Positions 20,475-31,981 of a stretch of 33,811 nt of DNA are shown here, one piece after another (the first letter of the stretch is position 1; every line of letters starts with the position of its first letter). Below the pieces are notes generated by a model. That model did no database searches. It was not told where the DNA came from and saw nothing but the letters and a program-made list of their open reading frames with translations. The stretch comes from a virus. The position numbers were made by a program, and so were the translations under genes. Location of the stretch: IMG/VR virus record IMGVR_UViG_3300042914_003288, positions 1 through 33,811 of that record; one strand, given 5' to 3'.

Positions 20475-20503
20475 TTGACGGATCGGCGTCCGTCCTGTAG
20501 GCT
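20475..20503 (+). promoter_or_regulatory. Cassette promoter P1 (leaderless type)
   Basis: TTGACG, 17-bp spacer, TAGGCT, then 9 bp to the ATG at 20513. Transcription should start 2-3 bases before the ATG. Confidence 0.65.
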
Positions 20504-20512
20504 ATAGCCACA

Positions 20513-20638
20513 ATGAATCACGACAAGAGCCTCCTCGAAAAAGTCAACGACACCATCGTTATCTTCACCGTGACGGTCTTCTACTGCATCCCTTTCTTCG
20601 GCATGGGCTACGGTATCGGTACCGGAATCTTCGGCTGA
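20513..20638 (+). CDS. Small membrane peptide, copy 1 of 3 (41 aa)
   Basis: The 41-aa product starts MNHDKSLLEKVNDTIVIFTV. A charged N-terminal 12 residues are followed by one hydrophobic segment (about residues 13-41) that ends in a Gly-rich stretch (GMGYGIGTGIFG). It has no basic C-terminal tail. The same gene, with its promoter, appears at 21222 and 22003. This copy has Asn at residue 12 where the others have Ser. Three near-identical copies with intact frames and conserved promoters argue that it is a real gene. A holin-like, superinfection-immunity or toxin-like membrane role is possible; none is shown. Confidence 0.7.
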   Translation: MNHDKSLLEKVNDTIVIFTVTVFYCIPFFGMGYGIGTGIFG

Positions 20639-20656: not shown

Positions 20657-20685
20657 TTGACACCCTGAACTCCAACCTGTAAGCT
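20657..20685 (+). promoter_or_regulatory. Cassette promoter P2 (leaderless type)
   Basis: TTGACA, 17-bp spacer, TAAGCT, 9 bp to the ATG at 20695. It is a second subtype (CTGTAAGCTGTAAGCACA) that recurs at 21366. Confidence 0.65.
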
Positions 20686-21117: not shown

Positions 21118-21158
21118 AACAATCTTCGTGCCAAGTGAAGCTTGGCATGAAACTTGTT
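21118..21158. repeat. Inverted box pair without hairpin (degenerate)
   Basis: A minus-strand box (21118-21134) and plus-strand box (21142-21158) face away from each other across a 7-bp spacer. The -24-like halves are intact, but both -12-like halves read TTGTT instead of TTGCT. No GGGGCCCC hairpin follows; the cassette promoter P4 does. Confidence 0.65.
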
Positions 21159-21785: not shown

Positions 21786-21939
21786 AGCAACTCCCGTGCC
21801 AAGTGAAGCTTGGCATGAAACTTGCTGTGGGGCCCCTCCTTCTGTAAGTCCTTGATACTGAGGGACTTACAGAAGCGGAGGTCCCCTAGCAACTATCGTG
21901 CCAACACAGATTTTCCAGGCGATTGGCATGAAACTTGTT
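21786..21939. repeat. Composite sigma-54-box/hairpin element 1
   Basis: Left pair: minus box 21786-21802, 7-bp spacer, plus box 21810-21826 (TTGGCATG, AAAC, TTGCT). Hairpin: 21829-21886, GGGGCCCC end, stem continuing through CTGTAAGTCC/GGGACTTACAG, loop TTGATACTGA. Right pair: minus box 21888-21904 and plus box 21923-21939 (TTGTT variant) separated by 18 bp. The boxes next to the hairpin both point into it. Confidence 0.75.
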
Positions 21940-21964
21940 TCCTGAAAAATCTGCACAGAAGTTG

Positions 21965-21993
21965 TTGACGGATCGGCGTCCGTCCTGTAGGCT
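21965..21993 (+). promoter_or_regulatory. Cassette promoter P7 (leaderless type)
   Basis: TTGACG, 17-bp spacer, TAGGCT, 9 bp to the ATG at 22003. It is identical to P1 and P4. Confidence 0.65.
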
Positions 21994-22002
21994 ATAGCCA
22001 CA

Positions 22003-22128
22003 ATGAATCACGACAAGAGCCTCCTCGAAAAAGTCAGCGACACCATCGTTATCTTCACCGTGACGGTCTTCTACTGCATCCCTTTCTTCGGCATGGGCTA
22101 CGGTATCGGCACCGGAATCTTCGGTTGA
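22003..22128 (+). CDS. Small membrane peptide, copy 3 of 3 (41 aa)
   Basis: This third copy of the 41-aa membrane peptide has Ser at residue 12, like copy 2. Its last Gly codon is GGT, against GGC in the others. After the stop the sequence departs from the first two copies: instead of promoter subtype P2, a fragment leading into composite element 2 follows. Confidence 0.7.
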   Translation: MNHDKSLLEKVSDTIVIFTVTVFYCIPFFGMGYGIGTGIFG

Positions 22129-22149
22129 AAATCTCCTAATAGCGGATCC

Positions 22150-22325
22150 TTGGCATGGGTCTTGCTATGGGGCCCCTCCTTGCGTAAGTCCTTGATACTG
22201 AGAGACTTACAGAAGGTGGGGCCCCGTAGCAATCTTCGTGCCAACTTGATCTTGGCATGACTTCTGCTCCCCCAGCAACCTTCGTGCCAAGAGCTATTGT
22301 CCAGGCGATTGGCATGAAACTTGTT
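22150..22325. repeat. Composite sigma-54-box/hairpin element 2
   Basis: Left plus box 22150-22166 (TTGGCATG, GGTC, TTGCT); its minus partner is lost. Hairpin 22169-22225, capped at both ends by GGGGCCCC. Then minus box 22228-22244, 7-bp spacer, plus box 22252-22268 (CTGCT variant), CCCCC, minus box 22274-22290, 18-bp spacer ending CCAGGCGA, and plus box 22309-22325 (TTGTT variant). This is the fullest right side in the window. Confidence 0.75.
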
Positions 22326-22349
22326 TCTAGAAAATCGTATACAGAAGTA

Positions 22350-22378
22350 TTGACCAGGAACGAGCCGCCCTGTAGGCT
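22350..22378 (+). promoter_or_regulatory. Cassette promoter P8 (leaderless type)
   Basis: TTGACC, 17-bp spacer, TAGGCT, 9 bp to the ATG at 22388. The spacer differs from P1 (AGGAACGAGCCGCCCTG), while both boxes and the GGCCACA before ATG are kept. Confidence 0.65.
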
Positions 22379-22387
22379 AGGGCCACA

Positions 22388-22576
22388 ATGAAAACGCAGT
22401 ACGTCACCTTCACCAACAAGTCTGGCAATCGCCTCACGATCCCCACCCGCGTGTCCTTTTCCAAGTCTGGGCAGCCGCTCTCGGCTTACCCTCAAGATTT
22501 GAAGGCCGACGATATGTGGCACTACACGATGGCAGTTCAATCTCAAATTGGATTTGTTACTGTTCGTTGGGGCTGA
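22388..22576 (+). CDS. Unknown small protein (62 aa)
   Basis: The 62-aa product begins MKTQYVTFTNKSGNRLTIPT and is beta-rich with three Trp/Tyr-containing strands near the end (DMWHYTMAVQ, GFVTVRWG). It is weakly basic and has no membrane segment. I do not recognise it. Codons are GC-rich. The following gene at 22625 is AT-rich and has a different type of leader, so two expression styles are mixed in the array. Confidence 0.65.
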   Translation: MKTQYVTFTNKSGNRLTIPTRVSFSKSGQPLSAYPQDLKADDMWHYTMAVQSQIGFVTVRWG

Positions 22577-22624
22577 TACTTAATTCTCTTTTAATAACAA
22601 CATAACATAACAATACAACACAAT

Positions 22625-22837
22625 ATGGATAACGGTGTTAAATATCTTGTAAATGCAGATGACTTTGTTTCAACTCGTATTGCTTTGCAGAATGCGAAAT
22701 TGAATATTGCAGAATTGATTGCGGTTTATCAATTAACTTCTCCAAGTTCAAATATCGATTCTCTCATTCGGCAGAAGAATGAATTGGATGCTTTGTTGAA
22801 TAAACTTGATTATCATAATCTCAACTTGTCTCGTTAA
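22625..22837 (+). CDS. Unknown helical protein (70 aa)
   Basis: The 70-aa product is mostly helical, with a heptad-like C-terminal half (SLIRQKNELDALLNKLDYHN). It resembles the end of the paralogous proteins at 25149 and 26178 (ELxxLLxxTxYxNL), suggesting distant kinship. The leader is an A-rich run of AACA units ending ACACAATATG, without Shine-Dalgarno. The leader of the 25892 gene is similar. Confidence 0.6.
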   Translation: MDNGVKYLVNADDFVSTRIALQNAKLNIAELIAVYQLTSPSSNIDSLIRQKNELDALLNKLDYHNLNLSR

Positions 22838-22844
22838 TATATAT

Positions 22845-23000
22845 ATGCATATCAATGTTAATTGCTTTGTTCGTTTTGATAATGAATGGTTTGTTGTTGA
22901 ACAGATATGTTCAGAATCAATTCGAGTAAGAAATGTGGATAATGGATGTTCAAATTGGGCATTTATATATGAAATTGATGAAGTTAAATATGTAAATTGA
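22845..23000 (+). CDS. Unknown small protein (51 aa)
   Basis: The frame opens upstream at 22806, but that start lies inside the preceding gene. The ATG at 22845, 7 bp after the 22837 stop, gives MHINVNCFVRFDNEWFVVEQ and a 51-aa beta-rich product ending EIDEVKYVN. It is AT-rich and probably translated from the same mRNA as its neighbour. The pattern FVRFDNEWFVVEQICSESIRVRN looks like a small SH3-like barrel; this is weak. Confidence 0.55.
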   Translation: MHINVNCFVRFDNEWFVVEQICSESIRVRNVDNGCSNWAFIYEIDEVKYVN

Positions 23001-23033
23001 AATAATATATATATACCAATTTGTATATATATG

Positions 23034-23150
23034 GTTCAGATTTGAATCAATATAGTTCAGATTTGAATGAATATGATTCAAATTTGAATCAATTTGATTC
23101 CAATTTGCTCAATTATCGCTCAAATTTGTAAATAAATAGTTCAATTAAAT
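23034..23150. repeat. Degenerate tandem repeat, period about 21 bp
   Basis: Six units begin at about 23034, 23055, 23075, 23096, 23118 and 23139. The theme is G(A/T)TCA(A/G)ATTTGAAT with AATAT between. The period is two helical turns. The segment is non-coding and lies between a stop codon and composite element 3. It could be an iteron-like protein-binding array. Confidence 0.6.
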
Positions 23151-23154
23151 AGAA

Positions 23155-23273
23155 AGCAAGAAACGTGCCAATCTGCACTTGGCATGACTCTTGCTATGGG
23201 GCCCCACCTTACGTAAGTCGTTGATACTGAGGGACTTACAAAAAGAGGGGCCCCCCAGCAATGTTCGTGCCAA
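23155..23273. repeat. Composite sigma-54-box/hairpin element 3
   Basis: Left pair: minus box 23155-23171, 7-bp spacer, plus box 23179-23195 (TTGGCATG, ACTC, TTGCT). Hairpin 23198-23254 with GGGGCCCC at both ends and GTAAGTC/GACTTAC inside. Right minus box 23257-23273 (AGCAA, TGTT, CGTGCCAA). The expected last plus box is lost; only CCAGGTGATTTTTT remains where CCAGGCGATTGGCATG is expected. Confidence 0.75.
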
Positions 23274-23322
23274 ACTCAAAAAACCAGGTGATTTTTTCTG
23301 ACGAAAATCTGCACAGAAGTTG

Positions 23323-23351
23323 TTGACGCATCGGCGTCCATCCTGTAGGCT
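23323..23351 (+). promoter_or_regulatory. Cassette promoter P9 (leaderless type)
   Basis: TTGACG, 17-bp spacer, TAGGCT, 9 bp to the ATG at 23361, with the usual CTGCACAGAAG segment upstream. Confidence 0.65.
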
Positions 23352-23360
23352 GTAGCCACA

Positions 23361-23537
23361 ATGAAACACGAAATGCAAATCAAGATCCTCTGGCACGTTC
23401 TCACTCTCAGCAAGCCCGGCTTCCTTTGGAAGTTCGAGTGCGAAGTCTCCGATGAGACGGAGGCTGAAGAAATCGCCCAGTACATCCGCGACACCACCAC
23501 GAACGCCGGAGTGAAGGTTGTCGAAGTTTGGGTGTAA
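23361..23537 (+). CDS. Unknown small protein (58 aa)
   Basis: The 58-aa product begins MKHEMQIKILWHVLTLSKPG and ends with an alpha-beta pattern (EAEEIAQYIRDTTTNAGVKV VEVWV), a typical ferredoxin-like half. The first five codons match those of the 20695 gene exactly, while the rest is unrelated. That is consistent with recombination breakpoints just inside the coding start. Confidence 0.65.
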   Translation: MKHEMQIKILWHVLTLSKPGFLWKFECEVSDETEAEEIAQYIRDTTTNAGVKVVEVWV

Positions 23538-23544
23538 ATACTAG

Positions 23545-23572
23545 TTGACCATTGCTAATCTCTTGCTAATCT
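23545..23572 (+). promoter_or_regulatory. Cassette promoter P10 (leaderless, TAATCT type)
   Basis: TTGACC, 16-bp spacer, TAATCT, then 6 bp to the ATG at 23579, so the transcript should begin at or next to the ATG. Confidence 0.65.
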
Positions 23573-23578
23573 AATCCT

Positions 23579-23956
23579 ATGCGAAAATTACTTGCTATCC
23601 TGCTCGTCTCGTTCTCTGTCTCTGCTGCCGATCTCAACGCCTTTCTCGATGCTGTCGCGAAGGTCGAGAGCAGCAACAATCCGAAGGCCGTCAACAAGAA
23701 AGAAAGCGCTTTCGGCCTATACCAAATCCGCCCCGCGTACTTCAAAGACTCGGGCGTGAAGGCAAAGCATGGCGACGTTTTCAAGCCTGACGTAGCCAAG
23801 AAGGTGGTGCTCGCCTACTTCCAGAAATATGAGCCCACTGCATTGAAAAACCTTGACTTTGAGACTCTCGCTCGTTGTCACAATGGTGGGTGTGGTTGGC
23901 GCAGGAACAAGTCAGCTACCAATGGCTACTGGCAGAAAGTGAAAAAGAATCTTTGA
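23579..23956 (+). CDS. Exported lysozyme/transglycosylase-like protein (125 aa)
   Basis: Residues 1-16 form a signal peptide (MRKLLAILLVSFSVSA) with cleavage likely after SVSA. The mature part has the lytic-transglycosylase-like order: AKVESSNNPKAVN with a candidate catalytic Glu30 in an E-S pair, FGLYQIRP (46-52), and ARCHNGGCGW with the N-G-G turn at 102-104. It is shorter than most soluble lytic transglycosylases (about 105 mature residues). It probably cuts peptidoglycan in the periplasm. Lysis genes usually pair with a holin; the nearby 41-aa membrane peptides are candidates only by proximity. It is GC-rich compared with the structural genes. Confidence 0.8.
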   Translation: MRKLLAILLVSFSVSAADLNAFLDAVAKVESSNNPKAVNKKESAFGLYQIRPAYFKDSGVKAKHGDVFKPDVAKKVVLAYFQKYEPTALKNLDFETLARCHNGGCGWRRNKSATNGYWQKVKKNL

Positions 23957-23980
23957 CACCCACAAAAAATCTGATACCTT
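23953..23980 (+). promoter_or_regulatory. Cassette promoter P11 (leaderless, TACCTT type)
   Basis: TTGACA, 16-bp spacer, TACCTT, 6 bp to the ATG at 23987. The -35 box overlaps the stop codon of the lysozyme-like gene. Confidence 0.65.
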
Positions 23981-23986
23981 TTTCTT

Positions 23987-24196
23987 ATGTCAGACTTAAA
24001 ATTGATTGCAAATCTATTGAATAAATATGGGCGCAATTTCTTTGCTAAGTGTCCCAGATATAAAACGGCAAAATATAAAAATGAATATGTGAGTCTAATC
24101 AGTTTCGATACTAATGATTTGTATTTTTATATAGAGAAGATTGATAAAAGCAGAGATTGTGTGAAAGTTACTGAATTAAATGATTTTGGATTGTAA
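23987..24196 (+). CDS. Unknown small protein (69 aa)
   Basis: The 69-aa product begins MSDLKLIANLLNKYGRNFFA and is basic in its first half (KCPRYKTAKYKNEY) and mixed beta afterwards. I do not recognise it. It has AT-rich codons even though its promoter is of the cassette type. The next gene begins 2 bp after its stop, so the two are probably co-transcribed. Confidence 0.6.
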   Translation: MSDLKLIANLLNKYGRNFFAKCPRYKTAKYKNEYVSLISFDTNDLYFYIEKIDKSRDCVKVTELNDFGL

Positions 24197-24198
24197 AT

Positions 24199-24465
24199 AT
24201 GATTGCAACAATTAAACAAAACAAAATAGGCCATTTGCACGTTTGGTTTGGCGATGTAAATATCATCGAAGTCAGTAAATACAATTATCTTTCTAATGGT
24301 AAAGAAAGTGATTTATATATACAAAACAAAAAAGATATTGAATGTTTTTTAGATGATATAAATAGTGATGACGCCAAAATGATTTGTGATGGTTATACTG
24401 TAAAGACAGAAGTGTTTGATGAATACGCTGAAATGATAAATAAAGCAATTTTCGTGCCAACCTAG
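24199..24465 (+). CDS. Unknown small protein whose C-terminus is encoded by a repeat (88 aa)
   Basis: The 88-aa product begins MIATIKQNKIGHLHVWFGDV. It has a beta-rich N-terminal half and a helical acidic second half. The last seven residues, KAIFVPT, are encoded by the left box pair of composite element 4 (AGCAA, TTTT, CGTGCCAA). The stop codon therefore lies inside the repeat. The element may have landed in the 3' end of a longer gene and supplied a new terminus, or the gene may have always run this far. Confidence 0.6.
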   Translation: MIATIKQNKIGHLHVWFGDVNIIEVSKYNYLSNGKESDLYIQNKKDIECFLDDINSDDAKMICDGYTVKTEVFDEYAEMINKAIFVPT

Positions 24466-24639
24466 ACTTGGCATGGGACTTGCTTGGGGCCCCTCCTTGC
24501 GTAAGTCGTTGATACTGAGGGACTTACAGAAGGTGGGGCCCCGTAGCAACTATAGTGCCAACATGATCTTGGCATGATTTTTGCCCCAGCAATCTTCGTG
24601 CCAACAGTGATTTTCCAGGCGATTGGCATGAAACTTGTT
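24444..24639. repeat. Composite sigma-54-box/hairpin element 4
   Basis: Left pair: minus box 24444-24460, 7-bp spacer, plus box 24468-24484 (TTGGCATG, GGAC, TTGCT). Hairpin 24486-24542, capped by GGGGCCCC at both ends. Right: minus box 24545-24561, 7-bp spacer, plus box 24569-24585 (TTGCC variant), CC, minus box 24588-24604, 18-bp spacer ending CCAGGCGA, plus box 24623-24639 (TTGTT). This is a full-length unit of about 196 bp. Confidence 0.75.
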
Positions 24640-24663
24640 TCTGAAAATATCTGTGCAGAAGTA

Positions 24664-24692
24664 TTGACCAGGAACCAGCCTTCCGATAGGCT
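24664..24692 (+). promoter_or_regulatory. Cassette promoter P12 (leaderless type)
   Basis: TTGACC, 17-bp spacer, TAGGCT, 9 bp to the ATG at 24702. The GGCCACAATGAA end is duplicated 12 bp further on, placing a second in-frame ATG at 24714. Confidence 0.65.
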
Positions 24693-24701
24693 ATAGCCAC
24701 A

Positions 24702-24923
24702 ATGAAGGCCACAATGAATACAAACAACTATCCGTCAGTTACGATCACTTTCTGCGAAACCCAAATCGAAGTTTGGTATCGCGTTTCTCTTTCTAACAAT
24801 GTTTTCATCATGGAGATGAAACCAGTTGATAATGTTTCAATAGAAGATTGGGATTGGATTTGTTCTCGGGCAAAGCATTATGAACAAATCGAAGAGTTGA
24901 TTGCATTTGAAATTAACAATTAA
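24702..24923 (+). CDS. Unknown small protein, paralogue A1 (73 aa)
   Basis: The start at 24702 fits the leaderless spacing. The second ATG at 24714 (MNTNNYPSVTITFCETQIEV) lines up with the start of its paralogue at 25892. The product has four beta strands and then a helix (EDWDWICSRAKHYEQIEELI), and Trp, Tyr and Cys positions are shared between the two copies. Function unknown. It heads an AT-rich trio (24702, 24938, 25149) whose first and last members are duplicated at 25892-26399. Confidence 0.65.
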   Translation: MKATMNTNNYPSVTITFCETQIEVWYRVSLSNNVFIMEMKPVDNVSIEDWDWICSRAKHYEQIEELIAFEINN

Positions 24924-24937
24924 TAATAATAACACAT

Positions 24938-25090
24938 ATGGACAACAATATTGAAATTGGATTGGCGCAGATTGAAGTTGAGGAAGTGATTACTGAAGAT
25001 TCAAATCCGACTTGGCCTGATGACAGCAACAACAACATGGATCAATATCTAAGTTTGGAAGCGGCAACTGAAATCATGTTTCCTTTCTAA
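24938..25090 (+). CDS. Unknown acidic small protein (50 aa)
   Basis: This ORF has the same A-rich leader (AATAACACATATG) as its neighbours. The 50-aa product begins MDNNIEIGLAQIEVEEVITE and is strongly acidic, ending MFPF. There is no counterpart in the second copy of the block. The stop codon overlaps the start codon of a hydrophobic micropeptide ORF (TAATG). Confidence 0.55.
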   Translation: MDNNIEIGLAQIEVEEVITEDSNPTWPDDSNNNMDQYLSLEAATEIMFPF

Positions 25091-25152
25091 TGTACATTTT
25101 ACTAATCATCTGCATTGTCATTGTACTAATAAATAAAACAAACAACATATGA
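25090..25152 (+). CDS. Hydrophobic micropeptide 1 (20 aa)
   Basis: The ORF reads MYILLIICIVIVLINKTNNI. Its start overlaps the previous stop (TAATG) and its stop overlaps the next start (ATGA). The peptide is a single hydrophobic segment of about 14 residues followed by a polar/basic tail. It lies at the same place as the ORF at 26117 in the duplicated block. It belongs to a set of similar ORFs at 27480, 29373, 29448 and 32503. Confidence 0.5.
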   Translation: MYILLIICIVIVLINKTNNI

Positions 25153-25373
25153 GTGAACATAAATACGCTTTTAACTATGTAATCGATCCGCGCAAATTGA
25201 TTAGTTTGCACGTTGCGGTTGAACTTCTAATTGTCAGGCTGGAAGAGCAGATTAAGAAAGAAGAATTGAGTAATGAGTCTTACTTTTCTAAATATAAACA
25301 AGAATTGGAGCAATTACTAATTGATACTGACTATTCCAATTTGAAATATGCTAATACGACAAATGTAAACTAA
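25149..25373 (+). CDS. Unknown helical protein, paralogue B1 (74 aa)
   Basis: The 74-aa product begins MSEHKYAFNYVIDPRKLISL. It has a first short beta part and then a long charged helical hairpin (VRLEEQIKKEELSN, KYKQELEQLLIDTDYSNL). It is about half identical to the protein at 26178. Leader AACAAACAACATATG, without Shine-Dalgarno. It ends 8 bp before composite element 5. Confidence 0.65.
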   Translation: MSEHKYAFNYVIDPRKLISLHVAVELLIVRLEEQIKKEELSNESYFSKYKQELEQLLIDTDYSNLKYANTTNVN

Positions 25374-25380
25374 TAACCTG

Positions 25381-25594
25381 AGCAGGAACCGTGCCAACTG
25401 AGGGTTGGCATGGAACTTGCTGTGGGGCCCCACCTTGCGTAAGTCCTTGATACTGAGGGACTTACAGAAGCGGGGGTCCCCAAAAAAATCAAGAGGTTTT
25501 TTTCGGTATTTTCCAGGTACTTGGCATGACTTCTGCTCCCCCAGCAATCTTCGTGCCAACAGCGATTGTCCAGGCGATTGGCATGAAACTTGTT
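25381..25594. repeat. Composite sigma-54-box/hairpin element 5
   Basis: Left pair: minus box 25381-25397 (AGCAG variant), 7-bp spacer, plus box 25405-25421 (TTGGCATG, GAAC, TTGCT). Hairpin 25424-25481, ending GGGGTCCCC. An A7/T7 segment 25482-25503 follows. Then plus box 25521-25537 (CTGCT), CCCCC, minus box 25543-25559, an 18-bp spacer and plus box 25578-25594 (TTGTT). The pair that normally flanks the hairpin on the right has lost its minus box here. Confidence 0.75.
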
Positions 25595-25619
25595 TCCTGA
25601 AAAATCTGTCTGGAAGATG

Positions 25620-25648
25620 TTGACGGATCGGCGTCCATCATGTAGGCT
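25620..25648 (+). promoter_or_regulatory. Cassette promoter P13 (leaderless type)
   Basis: TTGACG, 17-bp spacer, TAGGCT, 9 bp to the ATG at 25658. Confidence 0.65.
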
Positions 25649-25657
25649 ATAGCCACA

Positions 25658-25867
25658 ATGAAGGACGACATGAGTACAGAACACATCAGAGTTACAGACT
25701 ACGAAATCGACGACGACGGCGCACTATACGTCACCGAGGCGTTCGACAGCAACGCCAACCGTCTTCTGAACTGGAACGAGATTCGTGATCTCAATGCCAA
25801 TGTTGAGTTTATGGAAAACTTCAGCGAACAGCGCGTCGCATTTTACGACGAAGAATACAACGCCTAA
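25658..25867 (+). CDS. Unknown acidic small protein (69 aa)
   Basis: The 69-aa product begins MKDDMSTEHIRVTDYEIDDD and is strongly acidic throughout, with an Asn/Glu-rich second half and a DEEYNA end. GC-rich codons. An alternative start at the second Met (STEHIRV) is possible, but the promoter spacing supports the first. I do not recognise it. The A-rich leader of the next gene starts right after its stop. Confidence 0.65.
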   Translation: MKDDMSTEHIRVTDYEIDDDGALYVTEAFDSNANRLLNWNEIRDLNANVEFMENFSEQRVAFYDEEYNA

Positions 25868-25891
25868 CAATTAACAATAACAACACACACA

Positions 25892-26110
25892 ATGAATAGA
25901 AATAACTATCCTTCAGTAATAATAACTTTCTGCGAAACTGAGCTTCAAGTTTGGTATCGCGTTTCTCTCTCCAAGGGCATTTGCATCATGGATATGGAAG
26001 CTCTTGACAAGAACATCTCCAAAGAAGATTGGAATTGGATTTGTTCTGAAATCAAACATCATGAACAGATCGAACAAATAGTGGCTGATATTGTTAATAA
26101 CGAATACTAA
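25892..26110 (+). CDS. Unknown small protein, paralogue A2 (72 aa)
   Basis: This paralogue of the 24702 gene begins MNRNNYPSVIITFCETELQV and shares about 60 percent of residues by eye, including VWYRVSLS, EDWxWIC and HEQIEQ. It has a 24-bp A/C-rich leader (AACAATAACAACACACACA) and no cassette promoter directly upstream, so it is likely read from P13 with the 25658 gene. Confidence 0.65.
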   Translation: MNRNNYPSVIITFCETELQVWYRVSLSKGICIMDMEALDKNISKEDWNWICSEIKHHEQIEQIVADIVNNEY

Positions 26111-26116
26111 TACAAT

Positions 26117-26170
26117 ATAAAATTTTTAATTATCCTTTTGCTTCTTGCTTTTTTAATTCATACTAAATAA
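26117..26170 (+). pseudogene. Hydrophobic micropeptide 2, ATA in place of a start codon (17 codons)
   Basis: At the position corresponding to micropeptide 1, between paralogues A2 and B2, an open frame reads (I)KFLIILLLLAFLIHTK. The leader ACAAT is followed by ATA where ATG is expected. Either it is a recently dead copy, or ATA is used as a rare start. Confidence 0.35.
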
Positions 26171-26177
26171 ACAACAT

Positions 26178-26399
26178 ATGAGCGAACATAAACATTACTA
26201 TAAATATATAATCAATCCTCCCGAGTTGGTTGCTTTGCACGTTGCGGCTGAAATGTTAATTTCTAAACTTGATCAGCAAATAAAAGATCAAGAATTGGAT
26301 AATAATTCTTTTGCTTCTAAATATAAATCAGAATTGCAACAATTGCTAAACAAGACTCACTATTGCAATTTGGAACGCATCAATGCAAATGTAGATTAA
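26178..26399 (+). CDS. Unknown helical protein, paralogue B2 (73 aa)
   Basis: This paralogue of the 25149 gene begins MSEHKHYYKYIINPPELVAL, with the same beta start and charged helical hairpin (KLDQQIKDQELDNNSFASKY). Leader AAATAAACAACATATG. It ends 7 bp before composite element 6, as B1 ends 7 bp before element 5, so the gene and the element were duplicated together. Confidence 0.65.
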   Translation: MSEHKHYYKYIINPPELVALHVAAEMLISKLDQQIKDQELDNNSFASKYKSELQQLLNKTHYCNLERINANVD

Positions 26400-26406
26400 T
26401 AAACTG

Positions 26407-26583
26407 AGCAAGACCCGTGCCAACCTGGACTTGGCACGAAACTTGCTGTGGGGCCCCTCCTTGTGTAAGTCGTTGATAATCAAGGACTTACAAAAAGGGG
26501 GGCCCCAAAAAAATCAAGAAATTTTTTTCGGTATTTTCCAGGCGCTTGGCACGGCTTCTGCTCCCCAGCAAGAGTCATGCCAA
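26407..26583. repeat. Composite sigma-54-box/hairpin element 6
   Basis: Left pair: minus box 26407-26423 (AGCAA, GACC, CGTGCCAA), 7-bp spacer, plus box 26431-26447 (TTGGCACG, AAAC, TTGCT), both exact sigma-54 consensus. Hairpin 26450-26506, GGGGCCCC at both ends, inner stem GTAAGTC/GACTTAC. A7/T7 segment 26507-26528. Then plus box 26546-26562 (CTGCT), CCCC and minus box 26567-26583. Confidence 0.8.
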
Positions 26584-26613
26584 CATCACAAAAAAGAAAA
26601 ATGCAAAAAAAGC

Positions 26614-26641
26614 TTGTTGCCTCCCTTGTCAAGCCTAAGAT
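26614..26641 (+). promoter_or_regulatory. Cassette promoter P14 (leaderless, TAAGAT type)
   Basis: TTGTTG, 16-bp spacer, TAAGAT, 6 bp to the ATG at 26648. Confidence 0.5.
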
Positions 26642-26647
26642 ACTCGC

Positions 26648-26833
26648 ATGATTCATAACTGGATTCCCCGCAGCCTTCGATGGTCTGCTGACGAACGAAA
26701 ACAGAAAGAAACGCAAGCTCGAAACGCTCGCGAAAACGCAAGGAAAATCTGGCTGGAAAAGGAAAAAACCAGGCAGCAAATTGAGCGCGAAATCTTGCAA
26801 AAAGTCCTTGCACGTCGGGCGCTCCTCGACTAG
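26648..26833 (+). CDS. Basic helical protein (61 aa)
   Basis: The 61-aa product begins MIHNWIPRSLRWSADERKQK and is then one long charged helix rich in Arg, Lys, Glu and Ala (ARNARENARKIWLEKEKTRQ, QIEREILQKVLARRALLD). It has no Cys. It looks like a coiled-coil or nucleic-acid-associated peptide, but a fold cannot be assigned. The leaderless promoter supports the start. The next gene begins 12 bp later. Confidence 0.55.
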   Translation: MIHNWIPRSLRWSADERKQKETQARNARENARKIWLEKEKTRQQIEREILQKVLARRALLD

Positions 26834-26845
26834 TCTCTTCTCAAC

Positions 26846-27475
26846 ATGAAACTTGCACAAGCGATTGAATACGTGGGCGGATTTTCCGCTCCCTCAAAAA
26901 TGCCCTGTCATGGGTTCAGCATCCCGGCGCGGTATTGCAAAACGGGGCAGAAGCTCCGTGAAGTTGCTGGTAGCATCTGCTCTAAGTGCTACGCTCTGAA
27001 GGGACGATACGGTTTCCCGAACGTGCAGAACGCGCTCGAAAGGCGCTTCGCCAACCTGAAAAACGATCTGTGGGTTCAGGCCATGACGATTGCGATCCGG
27101 GGAACCGAGTCAAGCGGTTTCTTCAGGTGGCATGATTCCGGCGACATCCAAGATGTCGCGCATCTTGACAAAATCGTGCAGGTTGCTCGCAACCTGCCGG
27201 AAATCAAGTTCTGGCTGCCGACTCGGGAGTACGGTGTCGTTTCGGAATGGGTCAAGGCAAATGGTGCGTTGCCTGAAAATCTGACGATCAGGCTTTCGGC
27301 TCTGATGTTGGAAGGTCAACCTCCGGTTGGAATCGCCAACCGATTGGGTTTGACAACCTCGGGAGTTTCAAAGACGGGTTTCACTTGTCCGTCTTCGGCT
27401 CAGGGGAACAAGTGCCTGACTTGTCGGGCCTGTTGGGACAAGTCCGTCCAAAACGTCAACTACAAAACTCACTGA
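26846..27475 (+). CDS. GP88-like phage protein with cysteine clusters (209 aa)
   Basis: The 209-aa product resembles the mycobacteriophage Gp88-type family found in many phages. It has an N-terminal KMPCHGFSIPARYC, then SICSKCYALKGRYGFPNVQ, the signature FFRWHDSGDIQDVAHL near residue 92, and FWLPTREYGVV. A C-terminal Cys cluster reads CPSSAQGNKCLTCRACWDK. The eight or so Cys residues could bind a metal or an iron-sulfur cluster. Family function is unknown. GC-rich codons, unlike the structural genes. Micropeptide 3 starts 4 bp after its stop. Confidence 0.75.
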   Translation: MKLAQAIEYVGGFSAPSKMPCHGFSIPARYCKTGQKLREVAGSICSKCYALKGRYGFPNVQNALERRFANLKNDLWVQAMTIAIRGTESSGFFRWHDSGDIQDVAHLDKIVQVARNLPEIKFWLPTREYGVVSEWVKANGALPENLTIRLSALMLEGQPPVGIANRLGLTTSGVSKTGFTCPSSAQGNKCLTCRACWDKSVQNVNYKTH

Positions 27476-27479
27476 AAAA

Positions 27480-27539
27480 ATGTTGTTTCTGGTCTTGACG
27501 GTGGCGTTGCTTCTGGTAATCTGTTCTCAACAAAAATGA
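27480..27539 (+). CDS. Hydrophobic micropeptide 3 (19 aa)
   Basis: The ORF reads MLFLVLTVALLLVICSQQK. It starts 4 bp after the GP88-like stop and its TGA overlaps the next ATG (ATGA). It is a 15-residue hydrophobic run with a polar end. Its DNA also contains promoter P15, so peptide and promoter share the same bases. The ALLLVIC stretch closely resembles ALLLIIC in the micropeptide at 32503. Confidence 0.5.
   Translation: MLFLVLTVALLLVICSQQK
27495..27522 (+). promoter_or_regulatory. Promoter P15 (short leader)
   Basis: TTGACG, 16-bp spacer, TAATCT, 13 bp to the ATG at 27536. It lies wholly inside micropeptide 3. Confidence 0.55.
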
Positions 27540-27721
27540 AATACGAATTGATTGTTGAAACCGAAGCCTGCACGTCTTTCTTTACTTTCCCGCACAATCG
27601 CGAAGGTTCAACGGCAGCTTTTGAAAAACTTGGATCCTTCATCACAAAGGATGAGTTTAGATCCGCAAAAATCGTGAGCAATCGCGACAATGTGATTTTC
27701 GAGTTTCCTTCTAAAAACTAA
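27536..27721 (+). CDS. Unknown small protein (61 aa)
   Basis: The 61-aa product begins MKYELIVETEACTSFFTFPH and ends with beta strands (SAKIVSNRDNVIFEFPSKN). The alternating strand-helix-strand pattern could be a small alpha/beta domain. It shares an ATGA overlap with micropeptide 3 upstream. I do not recognise it. Confidence 0.65.
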   Translation: MKYELIVETEACTSFFTFPHNREGSTAAFEKLGSFITKDEFRSAKIVSNRDNVIFEFPSKN

Positions 27722-27735
27722 ACAAACAACATATC

Positions 27736-27981
27736 ATGCACACAATTAAAAAGTACATTGCACCGTTTGAAGTTATCAATTATACTCGCGAAGACGGCAA
27801 TCAAGCTGTATATAAAGTTTTCCGTCTTTCAAAGCATCTTTTTCGTAATAAAAAGAAAGACGAAAATAGAATTGTCGGTTTCAAAGCCTGGAAATTGGCA
27901 AATACCGGCGCAAATCAAAAAGCAGGTTGGCGCAGTTTTCGATTTGATCGAATTAATGAAATTGAGCTTGCTTTCTTTTAA
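27736..27981 (+). CDS. Unknown basic protein (81 aa)
   Basis: The 81-aa product begins MHTIKKYIAPFEVINYTRED and is basic and beta-rich, with a LAN-containing GFKAWKLANTGANQK stretch. Leader AACAAACAACATATC before the ATG is of the A-rich type. A second ATG-initiated frame overlaps it at 27758, but this frame has the usual leader and better residue composition. A structured RNA candidate follows. Confidence 0.6.
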   Translation: MHTIKKYIAPFEVINYTREDGNQAVYKVFRLSKHLFRNKKKDENRIVGFKAWKLANTGANQKAGWRSFRFDRINEIELAFF

Positions 27982-28007
27982 TATAATTTTGTTGGAAAAA
28001 AGACGAT

Positions 28008-28083
28008 AAAGCAATGGCATGGTGTGCAAGGAGATCTTGCAACGGGATTGTGTTATGGCCTATTGAAACACCATTGCTTTTTT
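28008..28083 (+). ncRNA. Structured RNA candidate ending in a terminator
   Basis: A stem AAAGCAATGG (28008-28017) pairs with CCATTGCTTT (28071-28080) and is followed by U residues, so the RNA ends like a rho-independent terminator. An inner hairpin TGCAAG/CTTGCA (28025-28040) has a GAGAT loop and displays AAGGAG. A TATAAT at 27982-27987 could start it. The same bases also encode a 23-codon ORF from 28014 (MAWCARRSCNG). RNA and peptide are alternatives. Confidence 0.45.
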
Positions 28084-28126
28084 AATTAAAAAAAATTAAA
28101 ATAAATTAATAAATAAAAATAGCGCG

Positions 28127-28257
28127 AGCAATTTTCATGCCAACCGGCACTTGGCACGGCAATTGCTGTGGGGCCCCACCTTTTGTAAGTCGTTGATATT
28201 CAAGGACTTACGCAAGGAGGGGCCCCATGCGTAAACCCTTGATAATCAAGGGGTTAC
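28127..28257. repeat. Composite sigma-54-box/hairpin element 7
   Basis: Left pair: minus box 28127-28143 (AGCAA, TTTT, CATGCCAA), 7-bp spacer, plus box 28151-28167 (TTGGCACG, GCAA, TTGCT, exact consensus). Hairpin 28170-28226, capped by GGGGCCCC at both ends. A second hairpin (28231-28257) GTAAACCC...GGGTTAC follows instead of the right box pairs. Confidence 0.75.
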
Positions 28258-28370
28258 AAAAGCTAAAACTCCAGGTTAACGGTAACTATCGAACTATTTA
28301 TCTATTTATATATCACTATTTAGCTATTTGTATTTAACTATTTAGCGATCACTATTTAAGTATTTAAATA
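28258..28370. repeat. AT-rich gap with CTATTTA repeats
   Basis: No gene is seen. From about 28287 the motif CTATTTA(G/T) recurs at least six times at 8-14-bp spacing, including TCACTATTTAG and CGATCACTATTTAAG. A related copy (CGCTCACTATTTAG) lies near 32777. Confidence 0.5.
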
Positions 28371-28398
28371 AAAAACCCTCAATTTTTTAGATTGAGGG
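28370..28398 (-). terminator. Rho-independent terminator of the small minus-strand operon
   Basis: The stem CCCTCAAT/ATTGAGGG has a 7-bp loop. On the minus strand it is followed by a U run. It lies 11 bp past the stop at 28410. Confidence 0.85.
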
Positions 28399-28409
28399 CG
28401 ATTGTTTAT

Positions 28410-28607
28410 TTATTTAACTGGATTTTTTGTATAACTTACATCAATTACTTCTTCAATTATAGTAAAGCTATCTTTTTCAGCATCAAAATCATCATTATGA
28501 ACTAACCAATTATGAATATCAATAGGATCTAATTTAACATCAGATTTGAAATGATACCCAATAGTTGGGCCGTTGCGATATTCAACAATAGCAATTTGTT
28601 TGTTCAT
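28410..28607 (-). CDS. Unknown small protein (65 aa)
   Basis: A longer frame extends to 28673 but overlaps the upstream gene by 65 bp. The ATG at 28607 gives MNKQIAIVEYRNGPTIGYHF and is preceded by CTAATATG, close to the common leader type. The product is acidic, with DPIDIHNWLVHNDDFD in the middle. It ends just before a strong terminator. I do not recognise it. Confidence 0.6.
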   Translation of the reverse strand: MNKQIAIVEYRNGPTIGYHFKSDVKLDPIDIHNWLVHNDDFDAEKDSFTIIEEVIDVSYTKNPVK

Positions 28608-28608
28608 A

Positions 28609-28863
28609 TTAGTAGAAGAAGATGCGCGACTCGTCAGGAAAGGTAACAGGAAGAGTGTCGCGGTCAACACCAAATGTGGTTCCAGGCGTCACATCAGACT
28701 TGGACAAATATCCAAATCCTTTGTAATTACCCGTCTGCATGAGAAGATCTCCCACGAAATACTGTAGAGCTATTCGCTGATCCGCAAAGTCATTCTTGCT
28801 GTTCTGGAAGAATCGGTTTGCTTGTTCTCTGATGTTCTCAACTGGAATGGTTTTTCGTTTCAT
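28609..28863 (-). CDS. Unknown small protein (84 aa)
   Basis: The 84-aa product begins MKRKTIPVENIREQANRFFQ, has an N-terminal basic helical part (FADQRIALQYFVGDLLMQ) and a C-terminal beta part ending RIFFY. GC content is higher than in its neighbours. Its start overlaps the stop of the upstream gene by 4 bp, so it is probably co-translated. Not recognised. Confidence 0.6.
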   Translation of the reverse strand: MKRKTIPVENIREQANRFFQNSKNDFADQRIALQYFVGDLLMQTGNYKGFGYLSKSDVTPGTTFGVDRDTLPVTFPDESRIFFY

Positions 28864-29138
28864 ACAAATAATTTTTTACCTTGTACCGTCAACGCTGAGA
28901 CTGAATCTACTGGAACACCGCGCCTTGTAAAGGATTTTTTATTGGAATCGTACTCTAAAACGCCCCCATAAAATCCTACAGGAGACTTGACAGTCCAACC
29001 GACAACGTATCCGTTGTTCAGCGTGACTTGCGTGAGGTGGAGCGAACCAACTTTTTTGTCTTTTTTCCACTTGCCACCTTCTTCAACTTCGACTTGGTGG
29101 TTGTCTTCTTCTTGGTAGCGGAAACGGATTTTTTGCAT
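28860..29138 (-). CDS. Unknown protein (92 aa), overprinted by the upstream gene
   Basis: The frame is open to 29261, but the ATG at 29138 gives MQKIRFRYQEEDNHQVEVEE, a sensible acidic/basic mix, and a beta-rich product (GSLHLTQVTLNNGYVVGWTV) ending VQGKKLFV. The gene at 29018-29380 overlaps its first 121 bases in another frame. Both frames remain open and have plausible composition, so a long out-of-frame overlap is likely real. Confidence 0.6.
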   Translation of the reverse strand: MQKIRFRYQEEDNHQVEVEEGGKWKKDKKVGSLHLTQVTLNNGYVVGWTVKSPVGFYGGVLEYDSNKKSFTRRGVPVDSVSALTVQGKKLFV

Positions 29139-29380
29139 AGATTTTTTGTTTGATTTTCTTCTTGCTTTTTCTTTTTGGCAAACTCGCCGTAGTGATATGC
29201 TCGACCGCGAAGTCCTAGCTTTTGCTGATCTTCTGTGATGAAGCCACGACGAATCTCCCACTTTTTAAAAGCGTCGTCAATCATTTTATATGTGCCATCT
29301 GGAAGGTCTAAAGAATAGATGCCATCCATGCTGACATCATATCTGTTTGTAATACGCGATTTAAATTGACTATCACTCAT
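29018..29380 (-). CDS. Protein with Lys-rich tail, overlapping the next gene (120 aa)
   Basis: The ATG at 29380 gives MSDSQFKSRITNRYDVSMDG. The first 70 residues are globular (ending GLRGRAYHYGEF). The last 40 are almost entirely Lys, Thr and Ser (KKKTTTKSKLKKVASGKKTK). The tail is encoded where the downstream gene overlaps in another frame. The longer start at 29416 would add residues encoded inside the micropeptide ORF. The tail may bind nucleic acid or may reflect overprinting. Confidence 0.6.
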   Translation of the reverse strand: MSDSQFKSRITNRYDVSMDGIYSLDLPDGTYKMIDDAFKKWEIRRGFITEDQQKLGLRGRAYHYGEFAKKKKQEENQTKNLCKKSVSATKKKTTTKSKLKKVASGKKTKKLVRSTSRKSR

Positions 29381-29444
29381 TGTATGTAAATCCCTTGTAG
29401 AAAAAATAAATACCAATACAAATTAATAAACAAAGCAAAAACAT
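29373..29444 (-). CDS. Hydrophobic micropeptide 4 (23 aa)
   Basis: The ORF begins MFLLCLLICIGIYFFYKGFT and ends YNE. It follows micropeptide 5 by 3 bp, and its stop overlaps the start region of the 29380 gene. One transmembrane-length segment is followed by a polar tail. Confidence 0.5.
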   Translation of the reverse strand: MFLLCLLICIGIYFFYKGFTYNE

Positions 29445-29447
29445 TAT

Positions 29448-29513
29448 CTACTTATTCTTTTGTTGATAGATTGTGATTAATAATGCGCAAACAATAATAA
29501 ACAATAAATACAT
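29448..29513 (-). CDS. Hydrophobic micropeptide 5 (21 aa)
   Basis: The ORF begins MYLLFIIVCALLITIYQQKN and ends K. A 16-residue hydrophobic run is followed by a basic tail. It lies 3 bp before the start of the 29707 gene's downstream stop (29516) and is followed by micropeptide 4, so two such ORFs stand in tandem. Confidence 0.5.
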   Translation of the reverse strand: MYLLFIIVCALLITIYQQKNK

Positions 29514-29515
29514 AA

Positions 29516-29707
29516 TTAAACAGGAGGAAGAACTTGCTCAAACTCTATTGCGCGTCCACTCAGATCACGAATGAGTTCACGGGACACAGTATCAAGAGTC
29601 TTGCGCCCAGTCAACTGAATAAATATGGCTTCCTGCGCTTTGTCGATGAACTTCTCGCGGGGAACACCATAGATGTGCTGAACATAGTACTTAATTTTAG
29701 TCTGCAT
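29516..29707 (-). CDS. Unknown small protein (63 aa)
   Basis: The 63-aa product begins MQTKIKYYVQHIYGVPREKF and is mostly helical (AQEAIFIQLTGRKTLDTVSR). An AAGGA lies 8 bp before the ATG, one of few Shine-Dalgarno-like sites here. Its start overlaps the end of a 38-aa basic ORF. Not recognised. Confidence 0.6.
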   Translation of the reverse strand: MQTKIKYYVQHIYGVPREKFIDKAQEAIFIQLTGRKTLDTVSRELIRDLSGRAIEFEQVLPPV

Positions 29708-29813
29708 TTTTATTCCTTTTGTATTGTTTTTTACTTGGTATTGTTTTTGTTGGAGGCGGAAGAGGCTTTCTAATTTTCTTAAATATCTCAGATTGTGATG
29801 GCAACTTTTTCAT
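29697..29813 (-). CDS. Possible small basic peptide (38 aa)
   Basis: A short ORF from 29813 reads MKKLPSQSEIFKKIRKPLPP and continues PTKTIPSKKQYKRNKNAD. It overlaps the end of the SprT-like gene by 26 bp and the start of the 29707 gene by 11 bp, in the pattern of coupled phage genes. It is highly basic with a Pro-rich centre. Support is positional only. Confidence 0.4.
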   Translation of the reverse strand: MKKLPSQSEIFKKIRKPLPPPTKTIPSKKQYKRNKNAD

Positions 29814-30294
29814 TTAATTTATCCCAAATAATGTATTGCTTACAATACTTGCAATAGTAATTTCTTTTACCAGATTGAATTGCGTTATGCTTGTATGTAG
29901 TTAGATAAATCTTTTTATCGCACTTGCAAGAATAAACATGATCTGTTTTTACTTCAAAGTCGTGGCAACGAGTTGCCGATTGGCCGATAACTTGCATAAC
30001 TTTCTTCCATTCGGCACCATGTGAAGAAATGAACATACCATAAACTTGTCGCGAAATTAAATGTGCAGCTTCGTGACCCGGAGTATCATCAATAAATGCT
30101 TGTCCATTCTGAATTAAAAGAACATTGTTCAATCGAATTAGATTATGATGGTAATAAGCAACACCAGCACGGCGACCGCCCAAATTAAACTCAACAGTAG
30201 GAAATGGAAACTTTGCATTATAAACTGATTCGCAAATTGAATATACGTTTTGTATTCTAACTAAGCAAGCGTTTTGTAATTCAGTTACATTCAT
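29788..30294 (-). CDS. SprT-like zinc metallopeptidase (168 aa)
   Basis: A longer frame reaches 30393, but the ATG at 30294 lies exactly 7 bp downstream of a TACTTT -10 box, so the leaderless start is chosen. The product has a beta-rich N-terminal half (FNLGGRRAGVAYYHHNLIRL), the zinc-binding HEAAH at 74-78 and SSHGAEWKKVM with a third His at 92. It ends in a zinc ribbon (CKC at 123-125, CKYC at 148-151). SprT/Spartan-type enzymes cut DNA-bound proteins. This is a plausible phage role in removing host proteins from DNA, but inferred. Confidence 0.85.
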   Translation of the reverse strand: MNVTELQNACLVRIQNVYSICESVYNAKFPFPTVEFNLGGRRAGVAYYHHNLIRLNNVLLIQNGQAFIDDTPGHEAAHLISRQVYGMFISSHGAEWKKVMQVIGQSATRCHDFEVKTDHVYSCKCDKKIYLTTYKHNAIQSGKRNYYCKYCKQYIIWDKLNEKVAITI

Positions 30295-30301
30295 CGCAAT
30301 C

Positions 30302-30330
30302 AAAGTATCACCTTGTACTGCAAGGCACAA
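30302..30330 (-). promoter_or_regulatory. Leaderless-type promoter P16 of the SprT-like gene
   Basis: On the minus strand TTGTGC, 17-bp spacer, TACTTT, then 7 bp to the ATG at 30294. It is the same geometry as the plus-strand cassette promoters. Confidence 0.5.
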
Positions 30331-30368
30331 GGGATTTTTGTCGCCTGAACAACTTTTTTTTGAGGCAC

Positions 30369-30608
30369 TTGGCACGAAACTTGTTGTTGACAACCTGGAG
30401 TTTCTTCAGAGAGAAACCAACGTAAGTCGTTGTCTTTCAACGACTTGCGTTGGGGCCCCTCTTTGCGTAAGTCGTTGATATTCAAGGACTTACAAAAGGT
30501 GGGGCCCCAAAAAAATCAAGAGATTTTTTTTGGTATTCTCCAGGTAGTTGGCACGGTTTATGCTCCCAGCAATGGGAATGCCAAATCATAGTTGGCATGA
30601 AAATTGAT
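30369..30608. repeat. Composite sigma-54-box/hairpin element 8
   Basis: Left plus box 30369-30385 (TTGTT). An extra hairpin CCAACGTAAGTCGTTG/CAACGACTTGCGTTGG (30417-30453) is joined to the standard hairpin (30452-30508, GGGGCCCC at both ends). A7/T7 segment 30509-30530. Then plus box 30548-30564 (ATGCT), minus box 30568-30584 and a degenerate plus box from 30592 with a 1-bp spacing change. Confidence 0.65.
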
Positions 30609-30732
30609 TTCTTGACCAGGATTTTTTTTGGTGAAGCAAAAATATCTGAGAAAAGTTGTTGTAGCCGCATAGGAAATCGTACACACTGTACCCGCAGTTC
30701 GATTCAACAACTAACCAAAAGGAAAACACAGT

Positions 30733-31764
30733 ATGCCAGCAAACATTGAAAATCGTGACGTTCAGGCCGGACTTGAGATGGCTTGGCACGGTATGACCAA
30801 GATCGTTCCCGTCATCAACTTCGCTGACGCCTTTCCATTTGAAATTGAAAAGCGTCAACTGGTTGACAGCGAGGACGGCACCCCAATCGAAGGAGAGTAT
30901 TACTTTCGCAGCACTGACGACAAGAAGAAGATCGGCAAGACCCTTCCTGATTCTTATGTCGCAATCTCAAACGCTCGTTTTTGGGAAATCGTGCAGAACG
31001 CGGTTGGTGGCACTGGCGCCGTCATCGAATCCGCTGGAACGGTTTTCGACCGTTGCCGCCGATTCGTGACTGTCAAACTCCAGACCGATCTTGATACGTT
31101 CAAGGTGGGTGATCGTGAGTTCAAGAATCGATTCTCCCTGCTGGACAGCATCGACCAGAGCACGAATCTGTACGGCGTGAACAGCAGCACCTGCGTCGTC
31201 TGCTCGAATACCTTCGCGATGGCGATGGGCGACAGGTCCGGCGAGTTCCGTTTCAAGCTGCGGCACTCGAAGAATCTTGTGCCCAAGATCGAGAACATGG
31301 AGAAGGCCATCGATCAGTTCATCGGTGTCACCGCCCAGTTCCAGCAGGCGATGAAGATCGCGAATGAGATCCCGGTCAAGCTGGATCAGGCTCGTCCGCT
31401 CTTTGCTGGTTGGATCGCTGAAGAGACCAATGGGCTATCCACTCGTTCATTCAACACTGTCGGGCGTTTGACCGAGTTGTTCACTCGGGGTGCTGGAAAT
31501 CGCGGCGAGACCCTGCTCGACGCTTTCAGCGCGGTGACTGACTTCTATTCGCACGAATCGAGCGGCGGTCAGGATCAACCGGGGTTCCGAATGAAGCAGA
31601 CCATCTCCAGCGACTTTGGCGCAGCGTCCAAGCGAAAGCAGGACTTCTTCGGCCAGATCTTCGACGTGGATAAGGAAGTGACGTTCAATCGGGATCGGTT
31701 CACCAATCTGGTCAGCAACGGTCGCAACCTCATCAGCGCGATGGAAGCGGTTACCGCGAACTGA
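30733..31764 (+). CDS. DUF932 family phage/plasmid-like protein (343 aa)
   Basis: The 343-aa product begins MPANIENRDVQAGLEMAWHG, whose AWHG..K.V segment is the hallmark N-terminus of DUF932 proteins. Later features include YVAISNARFWEIVQNA, STNLYGVNSSTCVVCSNTF and FRLRHSKN-like FRFKLRHSKN. DUF932 proteins are common in phages, plasmids and large accessory regions. Their role is unknown; links with DNA-binding or recombination have been suggested. This is the only plus gene with a clear AAGGA 10 bp before the ATG and has high GC content. A strong terminator follows. Confidence 0.85.
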   Translation: MPANIENRDVQAGLEMAWHGMTKIVPVINFADAFPFEIEKRQLVDSEDGTPIEGEYYFRSTDDKKKIGKTLPDSYVAISNARFWEIVQNAVGGTGAVIESAGTVFDRCRRFVTVKLQTDLDTFKVGDREFKNRFSLLDSIDQSTNLYGVNSSTCVVCSNTFAMAMGDRSGEFRFKLRHSKNLVPKIENMEKAIDQFIGVTAQFQQAMKIANEIPVKLDQARPLFAGWIAEETNGLSTRSFNTVGRLTELFTRGAGNRGETLLDAFSAVTDFYSHESSGGQDQPGFRMKQTISSDFGAASKRKQDFFGQIFDVDKEVTFNRDRFTNLVSNGRNLISAMEAVTAN

Positions 31765-31778
31765 ACCAGTCAAGCAAG

Positions 31779-31807
31779 AATCCTCCCGCAAGGGAGGATT
31801 TTTTTTT
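31779..31807 (+). terminator. Rho-independent terminator of the DUF932 gene
   Basis: The stem AATCCTCCC/GGGAGGATT has a GCAA tetraloop and nine T residues, beginning 15 bp after the stop codon. Confidence 0.9.
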
Positions 31808-31811
31808 GCGG

Positions 31812-31981
31812 TTGGCACGTCTTTTACGCTTGACAACCTGGAGATGCTCCTGGGAAAACCCAACGTAAGTCGTTGTCTTCCAACGAGTTACGTTGGGGCC
31901 CCTCCTTACGTAAGTCGTTGATATTCAAGGACTTACAAAAGGTGGGGCCCCATCGTAAGTCCTTGATAATCAAGGGTTTAC
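31812..31981. repeat. Composite hairpin element 9 (boxes degenerate)
   Basis: A TTGGCACG half-box (31812-31819) has no correctly spaced TTGCT. Three hairpins follow in tandem: CCCAACGTAAGTCGTTG/CAACGAGTTACGTTGGG (31859-31897), the standard GGGGCCCC hairpin (31895-31951) and GTAAGTCCTTGA/TCAAGGGTTTAC (31955-31981). There is no right box pair. Confidence 0.65.

Follow-up and report, generated by a model that had tools for sequence, protein, structure and literature searches.

The window examined here is a 33.8-kb virus fragment in its full length (IMG/VR record IMGVR_UViG_3300042914_003288, positions 1 to 33,811), and the features of concern are short boxes of the pattern TTGGCAYG-N4-TTGCT, similar to the −24/−12 elements of sigma-54 (RpoN) promoters, together with a 57-bp hairpin with which they form composite units. 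The minus strand encodes a T4-type terminase, an ERCC4-type nuclease, a PhoH protein and one protein with a weak match to sigma-70 region 2. The plus strand from 20 kb holds a series of small genes along with a lytic transglycosylase, a GP88 protein and a DUF932 protein. The boxes fall within this plus-strand small-gene region, which is rich in duplicated genes and cassettes.

At up to two mismatches the box pattern occurs 37 times in the window, against 1.6 matches expected; 20 of these are exact, and the reversed pattern has no match. An earlier note, made from the sequence alone, had described such boxes as forming back-to-back inverted pairs, and ten pairs were indeed located with the seed GCCAA..TTGGC only; the −12 half is present in them at the correct distance, although it is no part of the seed. 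In the pairs between 21118 and 28167 the left box mostly contains CACG where the right box contains CATG, which gives G-U in plus-strand RNA; the arrangement is reversed in the 28127/28151 pair.

Nine hairpins of the form GGGGCCCC...GTAAGTC..GACTTAC...GGGGYCCC, laid out as GGGGCCCC..CCTT..GTAAGTC-loop-GACTTAC..AAGG..GGGGCCCC, start at positions 21829, 22169, 23198, 24486, 25424, 26450, 28170, 30452 and 31895, and their predicted folds are very stable (z about −6 to −10). The note had also claimed about nine units of one architecture, with the innermost boxes pointing into the hairpin; the nine hairpins stand, but the two-sided box-hairpin-box arrangement is confined to units 1–4. A left inward box lies 1–2 bases ahead of GGGGCCCC in seven of the nine hairpins and a right inward box in four (units 1–4), units 5–7 having the inward box on the left side only. 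In unit 8 the boxes are more distant from the hairpin, and the only box in unit 9 is degenerate. Boxes begin earlier than in the extent first proposed, 21786–31981, with further ones at 20407, 21118 and 21142.

The most upstream box (20407..20423, plus strand) is a single exact one, found by the pattern and by the E. coli matrix described below, and the back-to-back pair <21118, >21142 (21118..21158; pattern and seed search) follows it; here < and > mark boxes pointing left and right, and the pair and the units are given no strand. Four units were identified by pattern, matrix and folding, i.e., unit 1 (21786..21939; boxes <21786, >21810, <21888 and >21923, with the hairpin at 21829–21885 between them), unit 2 (22150..22325; boxes >22150, <22228, >22252, <22274 and >22309, hairpin 22169–22225), unit 4 (24444..24639; boxes <24444, >24468, <24545, >24569, <24588 and >24623, hairpin 24486–24542) and unit 6 (26407..26583; boxes <26407, >26431, >26546 and <26567, hairpin 26450–26506). 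Pattern and matrix identified unit 3 (23155..23273; boxes <23155, >23179 and <23257, hairpin 23198–23254) and unit 5 (25381..25594; boxes <25381, >25405, >25521, <25543 and >25578, hairpin 25424–25480), the latter without a right inward box. Unit 7 (28127..28261; pattern) has boxes <28127 and >28151 and a hairpin at 28170–28226, which is followed by a second hairpin, GTAAACC..GGTTAC. Unit 8 (30369..30608), upstream of the DUF932 gene, has boxes >30369, >30548, <30568 and >30592 and a hairpin at 30452–30508 preceded by a small GTAAGTC hairpin, and unit 9 (31812..31951; pattern) combines the degenerate box >31812, with two mismatches, and the hairpin at 31895–31951.

Match to sigma-54 sites and selection on the letters

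The published sigma-54 consensus is mrNrYTGGCACG-N4-TTGCWNNw (PMC2725144), and the boxes agree with it, degenerate positions included; they likewise conform to YTGGCAYR-N4-TTGCW with invariant GG and GC 10 bp apart. A score matrix was built from 50 intergenic E. coli sigma-54 sites obtained by chromatin immunoprecipitation sequencing (PMC4591121), and it contains no phage sequence. This matrix finds 35 sites in the window that score no lower than the E. coli median; every one of them lies in 20.3–32 kb, and the reversed matrix finds none.

The tolerated substitutions follow the same pattern. Among 496 array boxes from many viruses, collected with a consensus-pattern search that permitted a mismatch at any position, 247 have one mismatch, and these include no change at the −24 GG, none at the TG of TTGC and two at the −12 C. 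The changes that are tolerated are C>T (134), the first base (44), the last T>A (30) and G>A (16). Furthermore, comparison of the window with its relative G002, which is about 91% identical, shows changes in 7 of 427 box letters (1.6%), as against 12 of 132 N4 positions (9.1%; Fisher p 2e-4) and 48 of 507 flanking positions (9.5%; p 2e-7). Because the box letters change less than both N4 and the flanks, the −24/−12 pattern itself is under selection, in agreement with what the note had proposed for boxes with conserved halves and a variable interior; to judge from these counts, purifying selection acts on the contacted letters alone and not on N4.

Letters, spacing, tolerated substitutions and selection are all in accord with the sigma-54 match suggested earlier, and four tests, i.e., the matrix, the mismatches of the array boxes, the comparison with G002 and the N5 control given below, say yes to the boxes being, at the level of sequence, sigma-54-type −24/−12 elements; predicted binding of sigma-54 to them is well supported. 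The likeness to RpoN promoters (PMC2725144, PMC4591121) lies in the letters, the N4 spacer, the tolerated substitutions and the recognition by an E. coli-trained matrix. Unlike those promoters, however, the phage boxes are packed on both strands with an orientation independent of genes, in viruses in which neither an activator nor a sigma-54 was found.

Arrays and hairpins in other viruses

The box-hairpin composite of the window also occurs outside this genome, in contigs G001, G002 and G004 and, in diverged form, in L011, L017, L239 and L241. Box clusters as such are far more widespread in viruses than the composite, and dense arrays, with up to 14 boxes per 500 bp, occur in about 55 groups of viral contigs that share no nucleotide similarity. 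There is typically one cluster per contig, and most phages have 2–14 boxes. Back-to-back pairs are present in the viral collection; convergent pairs with N4 were found in 18 stretches, against none with an N5 spacer, and tandem pairs in 97 stretches, against none for the reversed tandem motif. The contig G014 (L025/L034) starts and stops inside one box array, with overlapping ends; the array is thus a place at which assemblies break, and the number of arrays may be an underestimate. Bacterial genomes totalling 257 Gb yielded a single instance of the back-to-back form, which lies between two divergent genes with ribosome sites and is a normal divergent promoter pair; no tandem pairs were found in 250 genomes of the phylum that holds it. 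A bacterial origin of the arrays was rejected on these results, the viral and bacterial counts being raw and the collections not size-normalised. Among named phages, no DNA similar to the window and no array-bearing relative of three further array loci was found; Caulobacter phage RW and ctpbd312, terminase relatives with known hosts, are without a box array.

Adjacent boxes are separated by 9–11 bp in tandem, by 1–6 bp (mode 5) when convergent and by 5–8 bp, with a second peak at 18, when divergent, and box starts lie mostly 20–28 bp apart in all orientations. The N4 of convergent, i.e., facing, boxes agree at 26%, against 25% by chance (p=0.6). Strand pairing therefore does not explain the arrays, and hairpin pairing was rejected as the reason for box conservation.

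The hairpin, too, has a distribution of its own. At least 119 viral stretches contain its core, AAGTC-N-TTGA-NNN-TCAAG-N-ACTT, in dispersed copies that can number seven or more in one contig (L134–L249 and the window). The core is frequently doubled, with a GC-rich palindrome at the centre, and 122 of the 154 distinct copies lie more than 150 bp from any box. Copies in L163, L172 and L179 are followed by a T-tract and then a TTGACA-like promoter, in the manner of a terminator/promoter cassette, and in L140, L189, L136 and L170 lone box-like sites are also directed into the hairpin. Because each occurs without the other in other viruses, hairpin and boxes are separable modules, united in the window lineage, and not the single fixed composite element first envisaged. 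The suggestion of a mobile or REP element also finds no support: nothing in Rfam matched above the gathering threshold, the roughly 55 unrelated groups have differing surroundings, and no protein family was found to travel with the boxes, a transposase not having been searched for by name.

In the window, ten sigma-70-like promoters, TTGAC-N18-TARGCT, lie on the plus strand between 20475 and 25660, mostly directly after a cassette. The first (TTGAC-N18-TAGGCT, 20475..20515, plus strand) has an ATG 9 nt past the −10, and further copies start at 20657, 21184, 21366, 21591, 21965, 22350, 23323, 24664 and 25620; the 9-base distance suggests leaderless mRNAs. The array looks as if it grew by segment duplication. 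At 24702–26110 and 25149–26399, small genes of the NNYPSV..FCETE and MSEHK families are duplicated jointly with their cassettes. Elsewhere in the window, a collagen-like Gly-Ser-Ser repeat protein (1–513, minus strand) extends past the window end, and a 1213-aa protein (13765–17406, minus strand) is by the look of its sequence a fusion of glycosyltransferase and methyltransferase; a tRNA scan of the window gave no match.

The cassettes of the window recall the PeSL promoter-terminator cassettes of T4-type phages, which, as described in PMC4503421, combine a repeated intergenic stem-loop with an early-type promoter amid small shuffled genes and are described without sigma-54 box clusters; phage box arrays, conversely, often have no stem-loop. 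The stem-loop, the sigma-70-like promoters and the duplications are present in the window, and none of the nine main hairpins is directly followed by a T-tract terminator. A PeSL-like element driven by structure, i.e., a hairpin or cruciform acting as a terminator, recombination hot spot or RNA processing site with the boxes as mere hairpin arms, would agree with the very stable folding, with the wide spread of the core and its T-tract and TTGACA promoter in some copies, and with a region full of duplicated genes and cassettes. It is made very improbable, however, by the chance-level match of facing N4, by the many tandem arrays that are free of any dyad, by the lack of N5 arrays in the viral collection and by a hairpin in which no compensatory changes were seen.

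Orientation, gene direction and terL

The orientation of arrays was compared with genes taken as simple long open reading frames, and the resulting ratios are thus approximate. The outermost box points toward and away from gene starts at 16.2:20.0 (group-weighted) and from gene ends at 9.1:9.7, with an unweighted Fisher p of 0.9, whereas the E. coli intergenic sigma-54 sites are 42 sense versus 8 antisense. Some single boxes do face the gene they would serve, as a functional promoter would, but the arrays as a class do not.

This bears on the main rival to a reading of the boxes as polymerase capture sites, namely that they are working sigma-54 promoters at which host enhancer-binding proteins (e.g., nitrogen or envelope stress regulators) turn on phage genes or the making of short structured RNAs, which would tie phage expression to host physiology. 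The perfect promoter consensus and its selection are what such promoters would show; the sigma-70-like promoters of the window lineage are often directly preceded by a sense box, inward boxes aim into the hairpin with a predicted start at its base, and the GTAAGTC palindrome lies at an enhancer-like distance from outward boxes. On the other hand, convergent gaps of 1–6 bp and packing at 20–28 bp preclude that all are separate promoters, and by the usual footprint such sites are too close for independent ones, which, with an orientation unrelated to genes, also weakens the earlier idea of convergent promoters making short RNAs. The sigma-54 DNA-binding domain (PF04552) was not found in 50 virus records, many of them fragments, nor was the sigma-54 activator domain (PF00158) in 50 virus records that may all be fragments; a host activator may act on the boxes instead. 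Mixed orientation, tight packing, independence of gene direction and the lack of a phage rpoN or activator argue together against plain gene promoters, the disregard for gene direction being the strongest point, and we consider working promoters rather unlikely.

Where terL is part of the locus, the array lies upstream of it in 17 of 17 contig groups, mostly by 0.9–6 kb (array loci L022–L125), and the box closest to terL points away from it in 13 of the 17. This orientation counts against working promoters as well, and a terminase late promoter is unsupported for the same reason. Terminase is also the only protein family that many array groups share, and a common phage binding protein was rejected since no other family is shared across groups. 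The boxes could still be sites of another DNA-binding protein, serving packaging (pac/cos), partition or replication, that share the sigma-54 pattern by coincidence: the position upstream of terL, often at 0.9–2.6 kb, is the usual one for pac and cos, the regular spacing suggests a multimeric complex, and most genomes have one cluster. However, the same 12 letters and the sigma-54 degeneracy recur in about 55 groups, and unrelated small terminases would need to have one specificity; furthermore, no common candidate protein was found across the groups, and the boxes of the window span 10 kb at a distance of 12 kb from terL. Coincidental sharing of this kind appears improbable, if less so than an element driven by structure.

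Proposed capture of host sigma-54 polymerase

The explanation we favour, at a probability of roughly 0.45, is that the boxes are capture sites for host sigma-54 (RpoN) polymerase, which would be held in inactive closed complexes between the phage genes. Sigma-54 polymerase forms stable closed complexes, requires an ATPase to start and is mostly inactive on its own sites (PMC2725144, PMC4591121). Bound in this inactive form, it is able to repress promoters that overlap its site (PMC4591121). For the two-way insulator between cassettes that the note had also suggested, the evidence points neither way; at intragenic sigma-54 sites in E. coli a roadblock effect was sought and none was observed (PMC4591121). 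A host factor would be the simplest binder, because terminase alone is shared across the groups. Host polymerase would settle on the box clusters as stable, inactive closed complexes, and a start would need an enhancer-binding ATPase; the examined phages show neither such an ATPase nor a sigma-54 of their own, so that the chief effect of the clusters would be to capture the enzyme and keep it parked. Multiplying phage DNA might then titrate sigma-54 polymerase off the host sigma-54 regulon, and/or local occlusion might follow, in which the parked polymerase would cover adjacent sigma-70-like phage promoters, alone or alongside titration. Titration or local silencing is thus the purpose that we infer for capture. 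In the window, clusters, stable hairpin and putatively leaderless sigma-70-like promoter are joined in intergenic cassettes that have multiplied with the small genes.

Several points weigh against capture. Sites 20–28 bp apart compete for holoenzyme, and a pure sponge would space them for full occupancy; most phages have only the one cluster and the few boxes noted above; and a fixed place upstream of terL is unnecessary for a simple sponge. Tight spacing and this place together weigh most heavily against a plain sponge and hint at an ordered complex. Capture would also presuppose rpoN in the hosts. The broader proposal, that many unrelated phages use sigma-54-site arrays as a trap, the replicating DNA tying up host sigma-54 polymerase in dead-end closed complexes and shutting its regulon (stress, nitrogen and possibly defence genes) with no phage protein, is held more tentatively than capture itself.

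In the open-access literature searched, no account was met of phage arrays or decoys made of sigma-54 sites, nor of any element with the structure seen here, as the earlier note had surmised. The stoperators of mycobacteriophage L5 are likewise dispersed asymmetric sites in short intergenic phage gaps, but a repressor encoded by the phage binds them and they run in one direction, whereas the boxes imply no phage protein. The promoter islands of E. coli (PMC3661553, PMC7054387) resemble the arrays in being dense, overlapping promoter-like sites that potentially hold polymerase and silence; they are sigma-70-like, AT-rich and bacterial, whereas the arrays described here are viral, of sigma-54 type, close to the consensus and under selection. 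PeSL cassettes and promoter islands are the closest kinds, and neither covers selected, near-consensus viral sigma-54 arrays.

Phages are known to take over host transcription by means of proteins, e.g., anti-sigma factors, new sigmas or polymerases. If capture is correct, selected sigma-54-site arrays would represent a protein-free capture or steering of a host regulator in about 55 contig groups, and the arrays could hint at sigma-54 use by the uncultured hosts of such phages.

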